Assembly (NCBI RefSeq): GCF_025996515.1
Contig: NZ_BLRH01000035.1
Location: 806,001-870,000 of the forward strand
DNA length: 64,000 bases
Reading direction: 5' to 3'
Source: Rhizohabitans arisaemae
GTDB lineage: Bacteria; Actinomycetota; Actinomycetes; Streptosporangiales; Streptosporangiaceae
In this document: piece after piece, positions 49,388-60,436 of the stretch
Layout of the letters: the number at the start of each line of letters is the position of its first letter
Numbering within the stretch: position 1 is the stretch's first letter
Notes under the pieces: generated by a model
The model's input: only the letters and a program-made list of their open reading frames with translations
The model's database searches: none
Told to the model about the DNA's origin: nothing
Program-made: the position numbers and the translations under genes

Positions 49388-50059
49388 TCCGGCCCGCGGG
49401 TCCGCGTCACCTGCGACCCGGAGACGGCGCTCCCGTACGGCCTGCGGCGGCTGAGGCGGGCGGTGGCCCGCACGGTGGAGGCCGGGTCCTGGGTACGGGC
49501 GTTTTGGCGGCGATCGGGGCCCGGCTTCCCTGCGGCTGGAGCCGAGGGACATCCGCCGTTTTCGACGCGTCGGCGTTGCCGTGGTGCTCGTCCGTCCGGC
49601 CTTGGGCGGTGGTGAAGCCTCGATTTCGACCCGGTCCCGCCTTAATTGGAAAGCGTCCTCTAAGGTGTCTCGGCTGAATTATGCGACTCGGATTTATTAC
49701 GTCGGATAACAATCCGAATTCCCCGTGTTTGATTGTTTGGATTTGGGGAATGGATGTGGGTTTCATTCTTAATTGTTGATCGTGCAACATTATTAGACTT
49801 TGTCGCCATATGTTTGCAAAAGGGAATCGGATTGGCCGAAAGAATTTCGGGCGGGCTTTATCCGCGTGAGGCCATGATGATCTTCGCCACGGCCCCTGAC
49901 CGGTGTGTTCCGTGGGCTGTCGTGGCGTGCTCGACCGCTGTCGAGGATTGGTCTGGACAGAGAGAATACCTGATGTCTTAATAAGAGCACACGGGGCGCT
50001 CTTCATCCTTGTCAATGAATCCAGGGGCGTTGTCGTTAACCGCCGGAAAGGGGTGGTGT
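49388..50059. other. Long intergenic region with degenerate inverted repeat and A+T-rich tract
   Basis: About 670 bp. CCCGTACGGCCTGCGGC begins at 49432 and pairs partly with GGGTACGGG ending 49499: a degenerate copy of the dispersed inverted repeat, probably the terminator of the permease operon. From about 49650 to 50010 base composition falls sharply to A+T-rich, unlike flanking genes; this may be the EgtA-like gene's promoter or foreign DNA. An 82-codon frame at 49733-49981 has no clear domain and is not called. Confidence 0.5.
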
Positions 50060-51247
50060 GTGCGCAGGATGCTTACCGAACGCACCGCAGCAAGCCTGAT
50101 CTACGACAATGCCTTCTCACGGGATCAGGTGGGCCGCATTGGCGTCGAGCTCGAATGGCTCGTGGTCGACCAGGGATTTCCGCAGCAACGCGTCCCCATC
50201 GCCGACATCCGCTCCTGTCTCGGCTTCGCCGACGAGGGGCCGCTCCCCCAAGGGGGGTTGATCTCCTACGAGCCGGGAGGCCAGCTCGAACTGAGCAGTG
50301 CCCCGGCCGACACCCTGGCGGGGTGCCTGGACGCCGCGGCGAGCGACCTGGCGCTCATCCGGGACCTGCTGGGCCGCCGTGATCTGACGCTGGTGGGCAG
50401 AGGGCTGGACGATCGACCGGCCGTCCTGGTCAACGACCTTCCTCGCTACCGGACCCTGGAGCAGAACTACAACCGGTTCGGCCCGAGCGGCAAGATCATA
50501 ATGTGCAACGCCGCGGCGATCCAGATCAACGTGGAGGCCGGGGACGCCTCGCCCGGGTGGCGGGGCTGGCGCCGGCGCTGGTGGCTCGCGAACACCCTGG
50601 GCCCGATCCTCATGGCGATGTTCGCCAACTCCCCGGTGTCCACCGGAGGGATGGCGCACTCGGCGCGGCAGATCCACCGTTTCCAGGCGGATCCCTACCG
50701 CACGGCTCCGCTCTCCCTGCTGGGCGACCCCCGGGAGAACTGGATGAACTACGTGCTGGACGCGCCGCTGCTCGACGGCTCGGGGCTGGGGTCGACGATG
50801 CGGGAGTGGCTGCGGGGCGGCGGGTCGGCCGGGGTCTCACCGGAGGAGCTCGACCTGCACGTCCGGTCGATGGTTCCCCCGGTACGGCCCCGCGGGTACC
50901 TGGAGCTGCGGATGATCGACGCTCAGCGCGACGACAACTGGGTCGTCCCCCTCATCGTGGTCAGCAGGCTGCTCGACGACGCCCTCGCCTCGGCCGAGGC
51001 GATGCGGGTCGTGGAGTCGCTTCCCCAGCCGCTTCGGCCGGAGGACTGGGTGACCGCGGCCCGCGAGGCCATGCGGGACGCGCGCCTCGCGGAGGCGGCC
51101 GGCCGGTGCATGTCGATCGCGATCGACGCCCTCGGCCGGTGCGACGTCCCGCTCTGGGCGCGCAGGCTCGTCCTCGACTTCGCCGACACCTACACCTTCC
51201 GGTCCCGGTGCCCGGCCGACGACCTGCTGGTCGAGGAGGCGGCCTAA
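50060..51247 (+). CDS. egtA: Glutamate-cysteine ligase, EgtA-like (GCS2 family)
   Basis: A 395-residue GCS2-family enzyme that joins glutamate and cysteine; in actinobacteria the EgtA form supplies gamma-glutamylcysteine for ergothioneine. It shows IGVELEWLVVD (ATP/Mg Glu block), GGLISYEPGGQLELSSAP, MCNAAAIQINVEAG, WWLANTLGPILMAMFANSP and GYLELRMIDAQ. GTG 50060 has GAAAGGGG upstream; ATG 50069 is an alternative. No egtB, egtC or egtD is adjacent, so the role in ergothioneine is inferred from the family alone. Confidence 0.78.
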   Translation: MRRMLTERTAASLIYDNAFSRDQVGRIGVELEWLVVDQGFPQQRVPIADIRSCLGFADEGPLPQGGLISYEPGGQLELSSAPADTLAGCLDAAASDLALIRDLLGRRDLTLVGRGLDDRPAVLVNDLPRYRTLEQNYNRFGPSGKIIMCNAAAIQINVEAGDASPGWRGWRRRWWLANTLGPILMAMFANSPVSTGGMAHSARQIHRFQADPYRTAPLSLLGDPRENWMNYVLDAPLLDGSGLGSTMREWLRGGGSAGVSPEELDLHVRSMVPPVRPRGYLELRMIDAQRDDNWVVPLIVVSRLLDDALASAEAMRVVESLPQPLRPEDWVTAAREAMRDARLAEAAGRCMSIAIDALGRCDVPLWARRLVLDFADTYTFRSRCPADDLLVEEAA

Positions 51248-54016: not shown

Positions 54017-54497
54017 GGCGGCGGACTCCGGCATGTCAGCGCGTCCTCACGTGGGTCGCCGGAAGCCGTCCCGGCCCGGCCGGGTTGCAGGACCACGGAG
54101 CCGGTACGGCCGCACCCACTCTTTCGTCCGTGGGGCGGTGGCAGGACGGACCGCCCGGATGAGGGAGACGCCGCAGGCCGTACCGGCTCCGGTCCTCCGG
54201 TGGGATGACGAGCCGGTTCGGTAGAGGCGGAGACGCCGCGCAGCTCCGGCCTGTCGCCCATGTCCGGCCCGACTCCCTGCGTGTTCTCCGGCGATCGTCA
54301 GCCAAGGGACTTGCGGACTGCGATTTCTTGAATTTTGACGATCTCCATGAAGTGCCGTGCATATTCTTCGTGAATAATAAAACGCCTGTTGTCAAGTCCT
54401 CGATTATTAAGTAAGTCATCAAATTCTGAAAGATATCCTTTGCCAGGTGCCTTGTCGACATAGAGATACGATTAGTGGGTCGCGAAGGGGGCGTCCT
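54017..54497. other. Intergenic region with long inverted repeat and A+T-rich promoter
   Basis: Arms GGAGCCGGTACGGC (54097-54110) and GCCGTACCGGCTCC (54177-54190) are perfectly complementary, 66 bases apart, and belong to the dispersed repeat family. From about 54310 to 54475 the DNA is markedly A+T-rich (AATTTTGACG, AATAATAAAACG), unlike the genes around it, and likely holds the promoter of the peptide/YcaO pair. I see no gene. Confidence 0.55.
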
Positions 54498-54662
54498 ATG
54501 GGAAACGTTGTGGACTACGTCAAGGCCGAGTCCCTCGACAGAGGCGCTCAGCAGCTGACCCAGGCCGAACTCGAGCGACTGGAGGAACTGCTGTCCCCGA
54601 TGACCGGCGACGGTGGATACCGGAGCCCTGAAAACGTCCCCGTCCATGGGCGCCGGGCGTAG
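54498..54662 (+). CDS. Small acidic peptide, candidate RiPP precursor for the adjacent YcaO enzyme
   Basis: This 54-residue peptide has ATG 54498 with AAGGGGG seven bases upstream. The first 34 residues are helical and acidic, with LTQAELERLEELL as a leader-like amphipathic helix. The tail (SPMTGDGGYRSPENVPVHG) is Gly/Pro-rich without Cys, and holds Ser, Thr, Asn and His. It lies 47 bp before a YcaO gene on the same strand. Known precursors of YcaO pathways have this general leader/core build. The absence of Cys argues against thiazoles. No family is recognised. Confidence 0.55.
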   Translation: MGNVVDYVKAESLDRGAQQLTQAELERLEELLSPMTGDGGYRSPENVPVHGRRA

Positions 54663-54709
54663 GCGGGGCACCGCTCCGTACCCCGGATTCGAGGTCCTGA
54701 TGATCCCCG

Positions 54710-56107
54710 ATGCGGTCTCCTGCGATCCACGCGCTGGACCCGGCACGCGCCGGGGAGGGCGCGGGACCGGTGTTCGGTGAAGTGGAGCGGACGGTGCCGC
54801 CCGGCGAGGCCGGGAAACGGGCGGCGGCGGCACTGACCGCGCTGGGCCTGCGGACGGAGTTCGCGGACGTGGGCGGGGGCCGCGATCCGACCGCGTGGTG
54901 GTGCGGACTGCACGGCGACGGGCAAGACGGCTCACCGGTCGCGTGCGGGATGGGGAAGGGGCGCCCGGAGGAAGCCCGCGTGGGCGCGCTGTTCGAGGCC
55001 GTCGAGCACCACCTCACCGGCCGGTCCCGGTTCGACCCCGCCGTCGTGGAACCGGCCGAGCCTTTCGGGCTCGCCGCGGGGTTGTTTCGGGAGGACGCCT
55101 GCGCGCCGCTGCTGGCCGGGATGCCCGGCCGGCGGATGGCCTGCCTGCGCTACCGCTCCCTCGGCGGGGAAGGGGAAGCGCTGGTGCCGCTGTTTCTGTC
55201 CGGCCCCTGGTACACCGAGACCGGCGCCGCCCGGCTCCGTGACCTGGCCGGGGACGACTGCGACTACGCCCACCTGATGCGCTACAGCTGCAACAGCGGC
55301 TCGGCCGCCGGTGTCACTGCTTCCGACGCGCTGTTGCACGCCCTCAACGAGACGATCGAGCGGGACGCGCTGTCCCTGTTCCTGGTGCGGGCCTTCCTGA
55401 GTCGTGCCCGCTTTCGGCCCAGGTTGATCGATGCGGAGACGCTTCCGTACGGCCTCGCGCGGGCGCACGCGACAGCGGGAGAGGTGACCGGGTCGCCGGT
55501 GCATCTGCTGGACATCGGCAGTGACGTCGGTGTGCCGACCATGCTGGCGTACACGGCTCCCACGTCCCGGCATCCGCACCGGCGCGGCGCCGGCACCTCG
55601 CTGAGTCCGGCCTACGCCGCCTGGCGCGCCCTCACCGAGCTCATCCAGGTCACCCTCGGGGAGGGTTTGCCGCAGTCCGGAGCTCTCAAACGTGGTGATC
55701 TGACGGGGCTGGCGGCGCACCCCGAGCTGCACACGTGTGGGCGGTTCGATCTCACCGGCCTCCTGGGTGAGGCGCGTGTGATCCCCTTTCCCCGGGCCGT
55801 CGAGGTGGCCGAGCCATCCGAGGGCCAGGTGCGGAGGGTGGCCGCGATGCTGGCCGCCCGGGGTTACCGGGCCTACCACCGTACGATGTGCGCCCTTCCC
55901 GGCGGGATCACCGCCGTCCACGTGATGGTGCCTGGCATGGAGCGATTCATGCTGATAACCGACGGCAACCTGGTCATCCCCGGCCGTAGAGGGCAGGCAG
56001 CCGCGGCCGGGCGGCCCTTTCCCCGGCCTCCGGAAGGGTTTCCAAACGATCGATGCCTGGCTATTGGCGGCACTATTAATGAGGCGGCCGGTTTTTCCGG
56101 TTTATAA
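54710..56107 (+). CDS. Stand-alone YcaO-domain cyclodehydratase-like enzyme
   Basis: This 465-residue protein has YcaO ATP-binding blocks: GMGKGRPEEARVGALFEAVEHH near residues 83-105, SCNSGSAAGVTASDALLHALNETIERDAL (ATP/Mg Glu residues) near 195-223, and PAYAAWRALTELIQV. YcaO enzymes activate peptide amides with ATP to form azolines, amidines or thioamides, or modify ribosomal S12. No E1-like/ocin-ThiF partner, TfuA, dehydrogenase or peptidase is adjacent. The small peptide gene just upstream is its likely substrate. The C-terminus is PRPPEGFP-rich but does not end in PxPxP. Confidence 0.85.
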   Translation: MRSPAIHALDPARAGEGAGPVFGEVERTVPPGEAGKRAAAALTALGLRTEFADVGGGRDPTAWWCGLHGDGQDGSPVACGMGKGRPEEARVGALFEAVEHHLTGRSRFDPAVVEPAEPFGLAAGLFREDACAPLLAGMPGRRMACLRYRSLGGEGEALVPLFLSGPWYTETGAARLRDLAGDDCDYAHLMRYSCNSGSAAGVTASDALLHALNETIERDALSLFLVRAFLSRARFRPRLIDAETLPYGLARAHATAGEVTGSPVHLLDIGSDVGVPTMLAYTAPTSRHPHRRGAGTSLSPAYAAWRALTELIQVTLGEGLPQSGALKRGDLTGLAAHPELHTCGRFDLTGLLGEARVIPFPRAVEVAEPSEGQVRRVAAMLAARGYRAYHRTMCALPGGITAVHVMVPGMERFMLITDGNLVIPGRRGQAAAAGRPFPRPPEGFPNDRCLAIGGTINEAAGFSGL

Positions 56108-56163
56108 AGCTGCCTGTGTTGGTGTTTGGTTCTCTTTTCGACTTATGTCAATACAGTAGACTT

Positions 56164-58347
56164 ATGTCATTGCGATATCGGCAGAATCGCAAAGCGAGGG
56201 CGTCCGTCGCGCTCGGCGTTCTCCTCTTGGCGCTGTCCACCGTGTTCCTGTTGGTCGCCCCGCGACTGCCCGGGGGATCGGGGACAACGGTCGGAGCCGC
56301 CTCCATCGTGGCGGCGGCGGCCAGCGCGATGGCGCTGGGCAACGGCTTGGTGCAGTTCCTGTCCTGGTGGCGCAGACGAGCCGCACCGGCGCCCGCGCCG
56401 ACGTCGGCCGACATCGCCACCGCGAAGGACATCCTGGGCGGTCTGGTGACCCAGCAATGGCGTGACGAGACGGCCCTGCGCTCACTGTGCGATCCGGAGC
56501 CCATGCCGCTGCCCTGGCGCTCGACGCGGCGGCGCGAACTCGTCGACCACCCCGAGATCATCGCCAAGGGCACCGTGGCCTTCCCCGGCTTGGGCTTGCA
56601 CATCGCGGACATGGTGCGCAACTTCCGCGACCTTCGCTGCCGTCGGCTGGTCATTCTGGGCGATCCGGGTACCGGCAAGACGACACTGGCCGTGCAACTG
56701 GTGCTCGAACTGCTGCGTACGCGGCGGCCGGAGGAACCGGTCCCGGTGCTGCTCTCGGCTGTACGCTGGGACGACCGCCTCTACCCGAACCTCCAGGACT
56801 GGCTGGCGGCGAGCCTGGCGTCGGACTACCCCGCACTGCGCGCGGAGAGCCTCGGCCCCGACATCCCGGAGACGCTCGTGGCCCGCGGCGAGGTGCTGCC
56901 CGTCATCGACGGGCTGGACGAGCTGCCCGGCTCCGCCCGCGTGGACCTGCTCACCGCGCTGAACCGCTCGATGCACGAGAACGACCAACTCGTCATCACC
57001 TGCCGTACGGACCAGTTCGCGAAGTCCGTCCAGGAGGTCGGCGACGTCCTCACCGCGACGGCGGTCATCGAGCCACAGCCCATGACCCCCGTCGCGGCTG
57101 CGGAATACCTGCGGGCGTGCCTTCCCCCCGTGCCGCATCCCGCCTGGCCCCGGGTCCTTTCTGCGCTGCGTACGGGCGCCGCCCCCGCGCTGTCCGAGGT
57201 CACCTCGACGTCCCTGGGGCTCTGGCTGGTCCGCGCCACCTACATCGCGCCGCGGGTGGATCCCACGCCGCTGCTGGAACTCGGGCGCGGCAGCACGGCG
57301 GAACTGCACGACCATCTGTGCGACCAGCTCATCCCCGCCCTGGTGAGTGCCCGCCCACCCGCCGACAACCCGGCCCAGCCCTTCCGGCCGCAGCACGCGT
57401 GGCGCCCGGAGCAGGTCGGACGCTGGCTCACCTACCTTTCCCGCCAGCTCCAGTTCAGCGAGGACGACCCACGCGACATGGCGTGGTGGCACCTGGCCCG
57501 CCATGCCTCCAGCCGCGCGGTCCGGGTGTGGTCGGGCATCGCGATCGGAATCGGGGTCGGGCTGGTCTTCCTGCTGCTGACCGGGATGCCCCACGCCAGC
57601 CTGGGCATCGGCCTGCTGTCCGCGCTCGTGGTCCTGATCATGATCGGGTCCTGGTTCACCGAGCCGCCGGGCCACGCCGACTTCCAGCTCCGCGACAGAA
57701 TCCCCCAGCTCCTCCGCGTCCTGCGGGACGGGCTGATCGTCGGAGCCCTGGGGGCTCTCGTCGGCTGGCTCATGGCCAGCCCGGTGGGAGGCACGAAGGT
57801 CGGTTTGCTGGCCGCGCGGGACATCGGCCTGCTCTCCGGCATCGGGTTCATCGTCGTACTCAGCCTCATCCGCTGGGTCGAGCACCCCACCGCCGCCGCG
57901 ACCGCCAGATCCCCTCGCTCGACCTGGCGGGCCGACCGGAACCTGACCGTCATCCGGATCGTCAGCGGGCTCGTGGTCGGACTCATGGGCGGGGCGATCG
58001 GGCTGAAGGCGCAGCTCAGCCCGAGCGTCGCGATTGTCGGCGGGCTGCTGCTGGGACTGCTGTTCGGGATCATCCTGGGACGCCACCACGCCTGGCTGGC
58101 CTACAAGCTGACCGTCCCCCGGCTGGCCGCCAAGGGGTGGGTGCCGCTGCGGGCGATGGACTTCCTGGACGACGCCCACCGTCTGGGTCTGCTGCGCACC
58201 GAGGGGCCGTACTACCAGTTCCGGCACGTCGAGTTGCAGCAGCATCTCGCGCGCGGGCGGCAGGGGTCCCCCGCGAAGGAAGGACGGAGACCGCCAAGAG
58301 CCCGGACATCCGGCCGGCGAACGCGAACACCGTCCAAGGAGATCTGA
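56164..58347 (+). CDS. Membrane NACHT-domain NTPase (STAND)
   Basis: This 727-residue protein has two N-terminal helices (VALGVLLLALSTVFLLVAP and an Ala-rich one), a linker, then a NACHT module with Walker A GDPGTGKTT (166-174) and Walker B PVIDGLDELPG (Asp pair at about 248-252). A helical region follows to about 450, then four to six helices (IAIGIGVGLVFLLL, LGIGLLSALVVLIMI, GLIVGALGALVGWLM, VSGLVVGLMGGAIG, IVGGLLLGLLFGIILG) and a short basic tail. The trypsin-nuclease gene follows 58 bp downstream, so the two probably work together. ATG 56164 lacks a clear ribosome site. Confidence 0.85.
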   Translation: MSLRYRQNRKARASVALGVLLLALSTVFLLVAPRLPGGSGTTVGAASIVAAAASAMALGNGLVQFLSWWRRRAAPAPAPTSADIATAKDILGGLVTQQWRDETALRSLCDPEPMPLPWRSTRRRELVDHPEIIAKGTVAFPGLGLHIADMVRNFRDLRCRRLVILGDPGTGKTTLAVQLVLELLRTRRPEEPVPVLLSAVRWDDRLYPNLQDWLAASLASDYPALRAESLGPDIPETLVARGEVLPVIDGLDELPGSARVDLLTALNRSMHENDQLVITCRTDQFAKSVQEVGDVLTATAVIEPQPMTPVAAAEYLRACLPPVPHPAWPRVLSALRTGAAPALSEVTSTSLGLWLVRATYIAPRVDPTPLLELGRGSTAELHDHLCDQLIPALVSARPPADNPAQPFRPQHAWRPEQVGRWLTYLSRQLQFSEDDPRDMAWWHLARHASSRAVRVWSGIAIGIGVGLVFLLLTGMPHASLGIGLLSALVVLIMIGSWFTEPPGHADFQLRDRIPQLLRVLRDGLIVGALGALVGWLMASPVGGTKVGLLAARDIGLLSGIGFIVVLSLIRWVEHPTAAATARSPRSTWRADRNLTVIRIVSGLVVGLMGGAIGLKAQLSPSVAIVGGLLLGLLFGIILGRHHAWLAYKLTVPRLAAKGWVPLRAMDFLDDAHRLGLLRTEGPYYQFRHVELQQHLARGRQGSPAKEGRRPPRARTSGRRTRTPSKEI

Positions 58348-58405
58348 CTCCGGCCGGGAGCAACCGCTTTCGCCGGGACGGCACCAGGTCCGAAGGGGGC
58401 AGGGC

Positions 58406-60436
58406 ATGACCACGATGGAAGAGACGCCTGCCACGCTGCGGGAGGACGTCGCGGCGCGGGTGGCCGACAGGAGTGAGCAGCGCCGCCGGAAGATCGCGGT
58501 GCTCGCCGAGCCGGGCGGGATCGCCCGGGCCGACGAGCCCGAGCGGGTGGCCGACCGCATCGACCGGCTCAGCCACCACTACCCGGGCATCCGCCCGATC
58601 GACCCAGCGGCGATCACCGCGGCCGAACCGGCGGCCGTCACGGCGGCGGCGGTGGTGCTGGAGCGGATCATCCAAACCAACGACCTGCTGCCCGTCGGCT
58701 ACCTGGAAGGCGGGGCGGTCGCGGCGCGGGCGGTCGGGCGCGTGGTCATCCGCGACGTCCGCGGACGGCCGACCGGATACGGCACCGGCTCGCTGGTCTC
58801 CCCGGAGCTGCTGCTCACCAACCATCACGTGCTCACCGACGCCGCCACAGCCGGCCAAAGCGTCGTCGAGTTCGACTACCAGGACGGTGTCGACGGACGG
58901 CCCCTGCCGCCACAGAGATTCTCCCTGGACCCGGACCGGTTCTTCTTCGCCGACGAGCAGCTGGACTTCGCACTGGTGGCGGTGAAGGCCGGCCCGGGCG
59001 AGCTGGCCCGGTTCGGGTTCAACCGGATGATGGCCGCCGAGGGCAAAGCCATCGTCGGGGACTTCGTCACGATCGTCCAGCATCCGGGTGGGGAAAGGAA
59101 GCAGGTCGCCCTGCGGGAGAACCGCATCGTCGACATCCTGGAGCTGTTCCTGCACTACCAGACCGACACCGAGCCGGGCTCCTCCGGCTCTCCGGTCTTC
59201 AACGACCAGTGGGAGATCGTGGCCCTGCACCACGCCGGCGTCCCCGATCCCGACCGCGACGACTTCGGCGGCGTCATCAACGAGGGGGTGCGGGTCAGCC
59301 GACTGCTGGACTTCCTGCGCGGCCGGGCGTTCCCGCCGGCCCAGCAGGCCCTGGTCGACCGGTTGCTCACCGACCGCGTCGGCCTCCCGTCAGCCTCACC
59401 GGCCTCGGACGCGCCGGCCGCCCGACCGGCCGAGCGGCGGGAGACGGTGGGACAGGCGGCTGACGGGCAGATGCCGCTGACGCTCACGCTGTCGGTCCCC
59501 GTCGACGTCCTGCTCCGCGGCGAGCCGGTCGAGACGGCCCGTACGGCCGGGGCGGTGCCGGAGGCGATCCAGATCGATCCGGACTACGCACACCGGCGCG
59601 GCTACGACCCGGGCTTCCTGCCAGGCGGGCATCGGGTGCCGCTGCCCGCCCTCGACCCCGATCTCCTCGCGCTGGCGGCCCGCAACCGGCAGGCCGGCGA
59701 CGGGCAGGAGCATGTGCTGGACTACCACCACTTCAGCGTGGTGCTGAACCGTCGGCGGCGGCTGGCCTTCTTCACCGCGGTCAACATCGACGGGGAGACC
59801 AGCGTCCGTATCCGCCGCGATCCCGACCGATGGGTTTTCGACCCTCGCCTGCCCGACAGCGAGCAGACAGGGGAGGAGGTCTACCGCGACAACCCCCTGG
59901 ACCGCGGCCATCTGGTCCGCCGCCTGGACCCAGCCTGGGGCGCCGGCCAAGCCGTGGCCAAGGCCGGCAACGACGACACCTTCCACTTCACCAACTGCAC
60001 CCCGCAGCACAAGGACTTCAACCAGAACCGGACCACCTGGGCCGGTCTGGAGGACTACATCCTGGAGAACGCCGACAACCGCGACCTGAAGGTCACCGTC
60101 TTCACCGGCCCGGTCCTGGCCGCCGACGACGACCCCTACCGAGGTGTCCAGCTGCCCCGCCAGTACTGGAAGGTCGTGGCGATGACCAAGCAGAACGGGG
60201 AATTGTCGGCCACCGGCTACCTGCTCAGCCAGGATCACCTCATCGAGGGCCTGGAAGCCGCCGGCGAGGATTTCTCCTACGGCGCCTACAAGACCTACCA
60301 GGTCCCGATCCGGCGCATCGAGCACCTCACCCGGCTGTCCTTCGACACCCTCGCCGACGCCGACCCGCTAGCCCGAATGGAGGTGACGGACACCGCGGCA
60401 CGGGAGATCACCCATCTTTCTCAGCTCACCCTCTGA
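58406..60436 (+). CDS. Trypsin-like serine protease fused to DNA/RNA non-specific endonuclease
   Basis: This 676-residue protein has two parts. Residues about 100-300 are a trypsin-like protease: His141 in LLTNHHVL, Asp187 in LDFALVAV, Ser260 in EPGSSGSPVF. Residues about 395-660 are a beta-beta-alpha-metal nuclease of the NUC (DNA/RNA non-specific endonuclease) family: DRGH at 499-502 (catalytic His502), then FTNCTPQHKDFNQN with Asn530 and metal Asn. There is no signal peptide, so it should be cytosolic. The pair with the NACHT gene suggests a sensor-controlled effector in which proteolysis could free or arm the nuclease. Confidence 0.88.
   Translation: MTTMEETPATLREDVAARVADRSEQRRRKIAVLAEPGGIARADEPERVADRIDRLSHHYPGIRPIDPAAITAAEPAAVTAAAVVLERIIQTNDLLPVGYLEGGAVAARAVGRVVIRDVRGRPTGYGTGSLVSPELLLTNHHVLTDAATAGQSVVEFDYQDGVDGRPLPPQRFSLDPDRFFFADEQLDFALVAVKAGPGELARFGFNRMMAAEGKAIVGDFVTIVQHPGGERKQVALRENRIVDILELFLHYQTDTEPGSSGSPVFNDQWEIVALHHAGVPDPDRDDFGGVINEGVRVSRLLDFLRGRAFPPAQQALVDRLLTDRVGLPSASPASDAPAARPAERRETVGQAADGQMPLTLTLSVPVDVLLRGEPVETARTAGAVPEAIQIDPDYAHRRGYDPGFLPGGHRVPLPALDPDLLALAARNRQAGDGQEHVLDYHHFSVVLNRRRRLAFFTAVNIDGETSVRIRRDPDRWVFDPRLPDSEQTGEEVYRDNPLDRGHLVRRLDPAWGAGQAVAKAGNDDTFHFTNCTPQHKDFNQNRTTWAGLEDYILENADNRDLKVTVFTGPVLAADDDPYRGVQLPRQYWKVVAMTKQNGELSATGYLLSQDHLIEGLEAAGEDFSYGAYKTYQVPIRRIEHLTRLSFDTLADADPLARMEVTDTAAREITHLSQLTL

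Follow-up and report, generated by a model that had tools for sequence, protein, structure and literature searches.

What does a small, cysteine-free peptide become when it is encoded directly ahead of a stand-alone YcaO enzyme, and with which other gene products does it work? The question arises from a locus in the window, a 64,000-nucleotide stretch of the Rhizohabitans arisaemae genome, which carries five YcaO genes. The original prediction described a minimal locus with a RiPP-type peptide and a stand-alone YcaO, a product that would not be a thiazole and might be an amidine, and no match to a RiPP class that could be named. The pairing, the exclusion of a thiazole and the amidine option are supported here, and the other two claims give way: a NACHT ATPase, unmentioned in the prediction, is linked in most close relatives, and the nearest characterised enzyme among those compared is BtmF of bottromycin biosynthesis. 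The peptide is conserved, the YcaO is intact and homologous to BtmF, and the pair is linked to NACHT. On balance, the evidence leans towards a RiPP of the follower type that probably carries an amidine at its N-terminus and would work with a membrane NLR-like NACHT NTPase as part of a four-gene unit.

The peptide and its recurrence beside YcaO genes

Four genes run in one direction, encoding the peptide, the YcaO enzyme, a NACHT NTPase and a trypsin-NucA protein (Table 1), and their intergenic gaps of 47, 8 and 58 bases make it likely that 54498-60436 is one operon-like unit that would be transcribed as such. The Cys-free reading frame with its strong ribosome site (CGAAGGGGGCGTCCT before the ATG), the 47-bp spacing to the YcaO gene and the A+T-rich stretch upstream had all been predicted and are all present; GC content is 38-45% in 100-base windows between 54300 and 54499, against 71-76% further upstream between 54000 and 54299. 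A conserved promoter in this region was considered and rejected, as the blocks shared in a MAFFT alignment of 170-base stretches upstream of 30 peptide starts are weak and partial, and a sigma-70 consensus scan gave no + strand site upstream of the peptide gene. The predicted lack of adjacent partner genes holds for an E1-like partner, TfuA and a nitroreductase-type dehydrogenase, none of which was found by Pfam on the ORFs scanned between 50009 and 60436, and is incomplete for a peptidase, a trypsin-like one lying two genes downstream on the same strand. A glutamate-cysteine ligase family 2 gene, EgtA-like and under the equivalog cut-off, occupies 50009-51247.

Table 1. Features of the locus, in coordinates of the window
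Feature	Position	Strand	Basis
Probable promoter region, short blocks common to several relatives around GTCATCAAAT and CTTGTCG...GATACGAT	54408..54475	+	MAFFT
Precursor peptide gene, 54 aa, no Cys: MGNVVDYVKAESLDRGAQQLTQAELERLEELLSPMTGDGGYRSPENVPVHGRRA	54498..54662	+	ORF, alignment, codon constraint
Proposed N-terminal core, residues 2-7 GNVVDY (residues 1-6 after Met removal)	54501..54518	+	Conservation; putative core role
Proposed follower segment, residues 12-32 (SLDRGAQQLTQAELERLEELL)	54531..54593	+	Invariant residues; putative follower role
Private C-terminal extension, residues 41-54 (the tail of the original prediction)	54618..54659	+	Absent from the other 29 aligned peptides
YcaO enzyme, 465 aa, BtmF-like; residues 441-465 predicted disordered	54710..56107	+	Pfam PF02624 132 bits; BtmF comparison
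NACHT STAND NTPase; NTPase domain flanked on both sides by hydrophobic, membrane-like segments	56116..58347	+	Pfam NACHT 42.4 bits
Trypsin-like peptidase fused to NucA-type (Endonuclease_NS) nuclease	58406..60436	+	Pfam Trypsin_2 87.6 bits, Endonuclease_NS 178.8 bits

Absence of the peptide beside close YcaO homologues, named in the original prediction as grounds for abandoning it, did not occur. A genome-contig scan found six relatives (in Sinosporangium, Nonomuraea and Acrocarpospora) with the peptide upstream in each. YcaO matches with E no higher than 1e-60 came from 42 of the 341 family genomes searched, the source genome included, and an even draw of 394 genomes from the class yielded four with a match at E up to 1e-50, the source and three of the same family. 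Forty of the 41 other YcaO loci were fetched (G109 was omitted), and a candidate peptide adjoins the YcaO gene in all 40, upstream in 39 (ten of these matched with hand-chosen prefixes) and downstream in L067. The relationship is clear by sequence at 33 of the 40 loci, namely the 29 whose peptides were aligned with that of the window (alignment A1, 30 sequences) and L067, L070, L073 and L075, whose peptides outscore all 200 shuffles; those of L074 and L080 outscore all but one. The peptides of L076, L077, L079, L081 and a Streptomyces plasmid are unrecognisable by sequence, with 17-64 of 200 shuffles scoring as high, and that of L078 lay outside the shuffle test. An automatic criterion (ribosome site, MG start) picked out 35 of 41 YcaO genes, compared with 17 of 444 control genes; with the helix motif L[ST]xxE added, which was chosen after the family had been seen, the counts were 34/41 and 1/444. 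The peptide-YcaO pair is real, and the peptide is very likely the substrate of the enzyme.

The Streptomyces plasmid locus (L097, 7626-10815 of NZ_CP109191.1) encodes an MG-start, 53-aa peptide that contains Cys, a 40% identical YcaO and a SagB-type dehydrogenase, and is possibly an azole-forming cousin. An 11.85-Mb replicon of Nonomuraea gerenzanensis (L096, NZ_LT559118.1), filed as a plasmid in PLSDB, carries peptide, YcaO, NACHT and trypsin genes.

Residues M1, G2, D6, L13, Q18, L20, T21 and E24 are invariant in all 30 aligned peptides, and constraint is strongest at the N-terminus, MG-x-x-V-D-Y/F, in which residue 7 is Y in 22 peptides and F in eight, and N3 is found in 19. The codons of the peptide are under protein-level constraint: pN/pS is 0.48 for residues 1-34, against 1.21 and 1.31 in two shifted frames, and by segment is 0.25 for residues 1-7, 0.79 for 8-11 and 0.51 for 12-34, in a count of 29 peptides (without L044 and the divergent ones) in which synonymous change is near saturation. 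Ser, Thr and Cys are missing from residues 2-7 in every aligned peptide, Cys occurring further on in three, so no azoline is possible in that segment.

The original prediction placed a leader first and a C-terminal core after it, in a Gly/Pro-rich tail whose conserved residues were to be sought. The tail is present in the window and is not conserved: 24 of the 30 aligned peptides stop at residue 38-44, five other long ones have different tails, and the final 14 residues of the window peptide are its own, its nearest relative, L043, having a stop there. A C-terminal core was rejected on account of this privacy. At L075, one YcaO gene is preceded by four or more complete precursor genes in tandem, which differ at the N-terminus and have the helix in common. 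The private tail, the highly constrained N-terminus and these tandem precursors fit an N-terminal core with a follower better, and the pattern of conservation and copying is compatible with the bottromycin-type layout of a putative N-terminal core and C-terminal follower with no leader.

Linkage to a NACHT ATPase

A NACHT gene lies directly downstream of YcaO in the window and in 28 of the 40 fetched loci. Its product scores above the Pfam cut-off, and the Walker motifs GxPGxGKT and DGxDEL are invariant in 17 aligned sequences (alignment A3, covering 17 of 31 NACHT genes; membrane segments were judged by eye from the sequence). A conserved Met at 56164 is a likely alternative start of the gene. 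Linkage follows YcaO identity, NACHT being found at 28 of the 31 loci at about 50% or more (it is missing from L060, L067 and L070) and at none of the nine below, and the remaining flanks differ between NACHT-linked loci. In both trees the NACHT-linked YcaOs group as a single clade, with an SH-aLRT value of 99 in the second, where the link needs two changes, one gain and one loss (L060); this second tree was built without L048, L053, L054, L058, L059, L062 and L078, and its long branches, above all that of BtmE, are unsafely placed. Distant relatives and the Streptomyces plasmid lack NACHT, from which it would follow that the chemistry is older than the NACHT link. A functional tie of peptide and YcaO to NACHT is likely from this linkage, though adjacency in itself demonstrates no function.

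Several unusual arrangements were seen. In genome G322 (L093), peptide and NACHT (81% identical) are intact and lie some 1.3 kb apart, with no YcaO in the intervening sequence. The idea of a split locus in this genome, with a YcaO acting from 200 kb away, is weakened, since that YcaO (L067) groups with non-NACHT relatives and has its own downstream peptide. A YcaO-NACHT gene fusion, suspected from open-frame lengths and flagged at L051, was rejected, as the two are separate open stretches in L051 and L058. Two tandem NACHT genes follow YcaO at L061, and NACHT is split into two ORFs at L064. A general rule pairing NACHT with RiPPs was set aside, as two further NACHT paralogues (L094, L095) showed no peptide of this family, and a NACHT search of 60 genomes gave four with a match, one of which (G015, at 44%) was without a fetched YcaO match. 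The source genome itself holds a NACHT paralogue split over two ORFs (L088, 3805-13421, contig G000:C59), which is flanked by a B12-radical SAM gene and one for a RamC-type (class III) lanthipeptide synthetase, another case of NACHT beside peptide-modifying enzymes.

Trypsin-like genes lie near 12 of the 40 loci, mostly divergent, and the protein of the window is matched full-length at L043 only; single loci also carry S8, M43 or Exo_endo_phos genes. PADLOC returned only weak partial matches to catalogued defence proteins, the best of them (E 8.8e-05) to the trypsin domain.

The linkage bears on whether the product is an ordinary secreted small RiPP, an antibiotic or signal made by a BtmF-like YcaO with NACHT as a passenger or self-protection gene. 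Such a reading has precedent in the known BtmF-containing clusters, which make an antibiotic (PMC5103208), and it would accommodate both the nine more distant YcaO relatives, all of which have a candidate peptide and no NACHT, and the plasmid copy, in which the SagB-type dehydrogenase stands in place of NACHT. It is nevertheless considered unlikely: the Pfam scan of the window neighbours found no exporter or immunity gene, NACHT is kept in close loci whose other flanks differ, and the N-terminus is almost fixed across genera (D6 in 30/30, N3 in 19/30), unlike that of a diversifying toxin.

The YcaO enzyme and its possible reaction

The enzyme belongs to the YcaO superfamily, with E96, E99, N195, E214, E217, R218, D219, R306, E310 and Q313 invariant in 38 aligned members; the ATP-binding residues are presumably among these positions. 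The window YcaO was also aligned with MJ1094 and TruD. It scores 60.7 bits against TIGR03604, under the cut-off of 219, and has a weak match to TIGR03266. An AlphaFold2 model (pLDDT 85.4, pTM 0.87) has MJ1094 YcaO (6peu) as its best PDB fold match, at E 6.3e-16, and MJ1094 is also the nearest solved structure by sequence, at E 2.6e-20 with the profile. The PDB list holds no BtmF structure, so the fold match cannot choose between reactions. The C-terminus of the enzyme (56030-56107), like the peptide tail, runs beyond the end of its nearest relative.

Two of 392 genomes from a single genus, taken to be Streptomyces, contain a bottromycin cluster, with MGPVVVFDCMTADFLNDDPNNAELSALEMEELESWGAWDGEATS as precursor. 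In Pfam terms, the cluster genes run B12-radical SAM, precursor, weak YcaO, strong YcaO, radical SAM, alpha/beta hydrolase, amidohydrolase and P450, an order that matches btmC to btmJ, all on one strand in the published btmC-M layout (PMC7113386), so that the second YcaO of the cluster is BtmF. Profile A2, built from 38 YcaO rows (L049 and L050, missed by the gene caller, and L078 were left out), gives the two BtmF copies 203 and 198 bits, BtmE 44-48, and 16 other scoring non-bottromycin YcaO loci 78 or less, with L116 unmatched; these comparison loci came from the source genome and eight genomes of the genus taken to be Streptomyces. By hhalign, the YcaO matches BtmF at E 3.7e-36 over 396 columns and BtmE at E 2.5e-8, and by BLAST, BtmF is the best of six subjects for 39 of 39 YcaOs, at about 32% identity. 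Judged in this way, the closest characterised relative among the YcaOs compared is BtmF, the bottromycin macroamidine enzyme, which mutants have assigned, with BtmI, to macroamidine formation (PMC5103208).

The YcaO could instead carry out thioamidation or ATP-dependent peptide bond cleavage, which are known YcaO reactions (PMC8442711). Cleavage finds some encouragement in PDB entry 7u58, titled ATP-dependent peptidase YcaO. Thioamidation would agree with the MJ1094 fold match and the weak TIGR03266 match, since the family of the archaeal YcaO MJ1094 includes McrA-glycine thioamidation enzymes. These reactions are held to be improbable here: BtmF is by a wide margin nearer in sequence than the other YcaOs compared, and the bacterial thioamidation route, as outlined in PMC8442711, usually involves TfuA, which is missing among the neighbours scanned.

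An amidine at the peptide N-terminus is the preferred product, and a probable one, with both the amidine and its ring size drawn from analogy with bottromycin. Removal of Met1 would expose a free Gly1 amine as the nucleophile; the BtmF-related YcaO would recognise the follower helix and activate a backbone amide with ATP; and the amidine ring would close within GNVVDY, by the bottromycin analogy through attack of Gly1 on the Val4-Asp5 amide with loss of one water. That the peptide and a BtmF-related YcaO travel with NACHT suggests a partnership between the modified peptide and a bacterial NLR-type switch. Paired with the membrane NACHT NTPase, the peptide may be a ligand, a cofactor or an effector of a switch in conflict or signalling, the trypsin-NucA protein perhaps serving as an accessory effector or processing protein. 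A more specific version, put forward tentatively as possible rather than probable, is a RiPP-gated bacterial NLR, in which the macroamidine-closed hexapeptide head GNVVDY would be the built-in ligand or guard of the membrane NACHT, and damage to the supply of the peptide, or release of the peptide, would trigger a conflict or cell-death response. That the peptide is instead a small regulatory partner of a YcaO that modifies another protein, such as NACHT, is very improbable, its conservation like that of a functional small protein and the G322 peptide beside NACHT with no YcaO in place being outweighed by the substrate-like look of the L075 tandem copies with variable N-termini, by the MG start kept even in divergent peptides and by the statement in PMC8442711 that evidence for YcaO substrates other than RiPPs is lacking in Actinobacteria.

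With this locus, enzymology of the bottromycin type reaches a Cys-free family distributed across one actinobacterial family, in a substrate-enzyme pair of two genes that is simple enough to reconstitute, and a YcaO-modified peptide is brought together with a NACHT ATPase. To our knowledge, the triggers of bacterial NLR-like proteins are mostly unknown. If the link holds, it would provide a chemically defined peptide for one such protein, and a RiPP-gated NLR, if true, would be the first YcaO RiPP in an intracellular immune-type switch instead of an exported metabolite. The literature searched (subscription papers and supplements lay outside it) contained no description of a YcaO-NACHT link, the co-occurring 'Nacht' being an author name, no match to MGNVVDY, NVVDYV or LTQAELDRL, and, by title or abstract, no publication describing the window locus. 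The peptide may be listed without comment in the RiPPER data sets of PMC8442711.

Comparison with known systems

Like the window locus, bottromycin clusters have a stand-alone YcaO, related full-length, with no E1-like partner, and a precursor of about 40 aa with an MG start followed by an acidic helix. The scanned window neighbours lack the second YcaO (BtmE), radical SAM methyltransferases, P450, amidohydrolase and O-methyltransferase of bottromycin, and include no equivalent of the partner amidohydrolase BtmI, of the dedicated aminopeptidase BtmM or of an exporter. The window peptide, having no Cys, also differs from the precursor of bottromycin's Cys-derived thiazole, and NACHT and trypsin-NucA genes are present instead. 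Homology between the precursors was not found: none of the 30 peptides matches the bottro_RiPP family NF033414 at E up to 10, hhalign of the precursor against BtmD gives E 0.046 and a probability of 1.2%, and 10 of 200 shuffles of BtmD scored as high or higher, which is not significant. The bottromycin precursor family was matched in 0 of the 394 genomes of the class-wide draw, but as no control matched either, this count carries no information.

Streptamidine (ami) clusters, as described in PMC8442711, resemble the window in combining an actinobacterial stand-alone YcaO with a precursor poor in Cys, Ser and Thr, and their product is an amidine. They differ in that FecBCDE, the E1-like AmiB, AmiC, AmiE and the ABC transporter are absent among the window neighbours scanned, and in that the streptamidine core is central, with leader and follower, and the ALV common to motifs A and B is absent from the window peptide. 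Among the neighbours scanned, there is neither the TfuA of thioamitide and TfuA-YcaO loci nor the E1-like or Ocin-ThiF partner of azoline (TOMM) loci.

In their domain types, the trypsin, S8, M43 and Exo_endo_phos genes are reminiscent of the conflict systems with peptidase and NucA described by Kaur et al. (2020). Their System 3 is defined by a trypsin-like peptidase and NucA, fused or in one operon, sometimes with an S8 peptidase and a STAND NTPase (PMC7159879), and the protein at 58406-60436 has that fusion. System 3 differs, as far as its description in that paper goes, in being mostly alphaproteobacterial, in having a STAND protein with a Death-like domain and trypsin, and in having no YcaO or peptide described; the main text of PMC7159879 makes no mention of YcaO. 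The same paper proposes that the peptide of FxSxx-COOH systems is a toxin or a signal amplifying a conflict system. These systems use a radical SAM enzyme and a metallopeptidase, a conserved C-terminal end and an AP-ATPase, whereas the window has a YcaO, an N-terminal conserved segment and a membrane NACHT. In both, a small modified peptide is encoded with a STAND-class NTPase in multicellular Actinobacteria, and the FxSxx peptides with their AP-ATPases come nearest to a modified peptide joined to a STAND NTPase.
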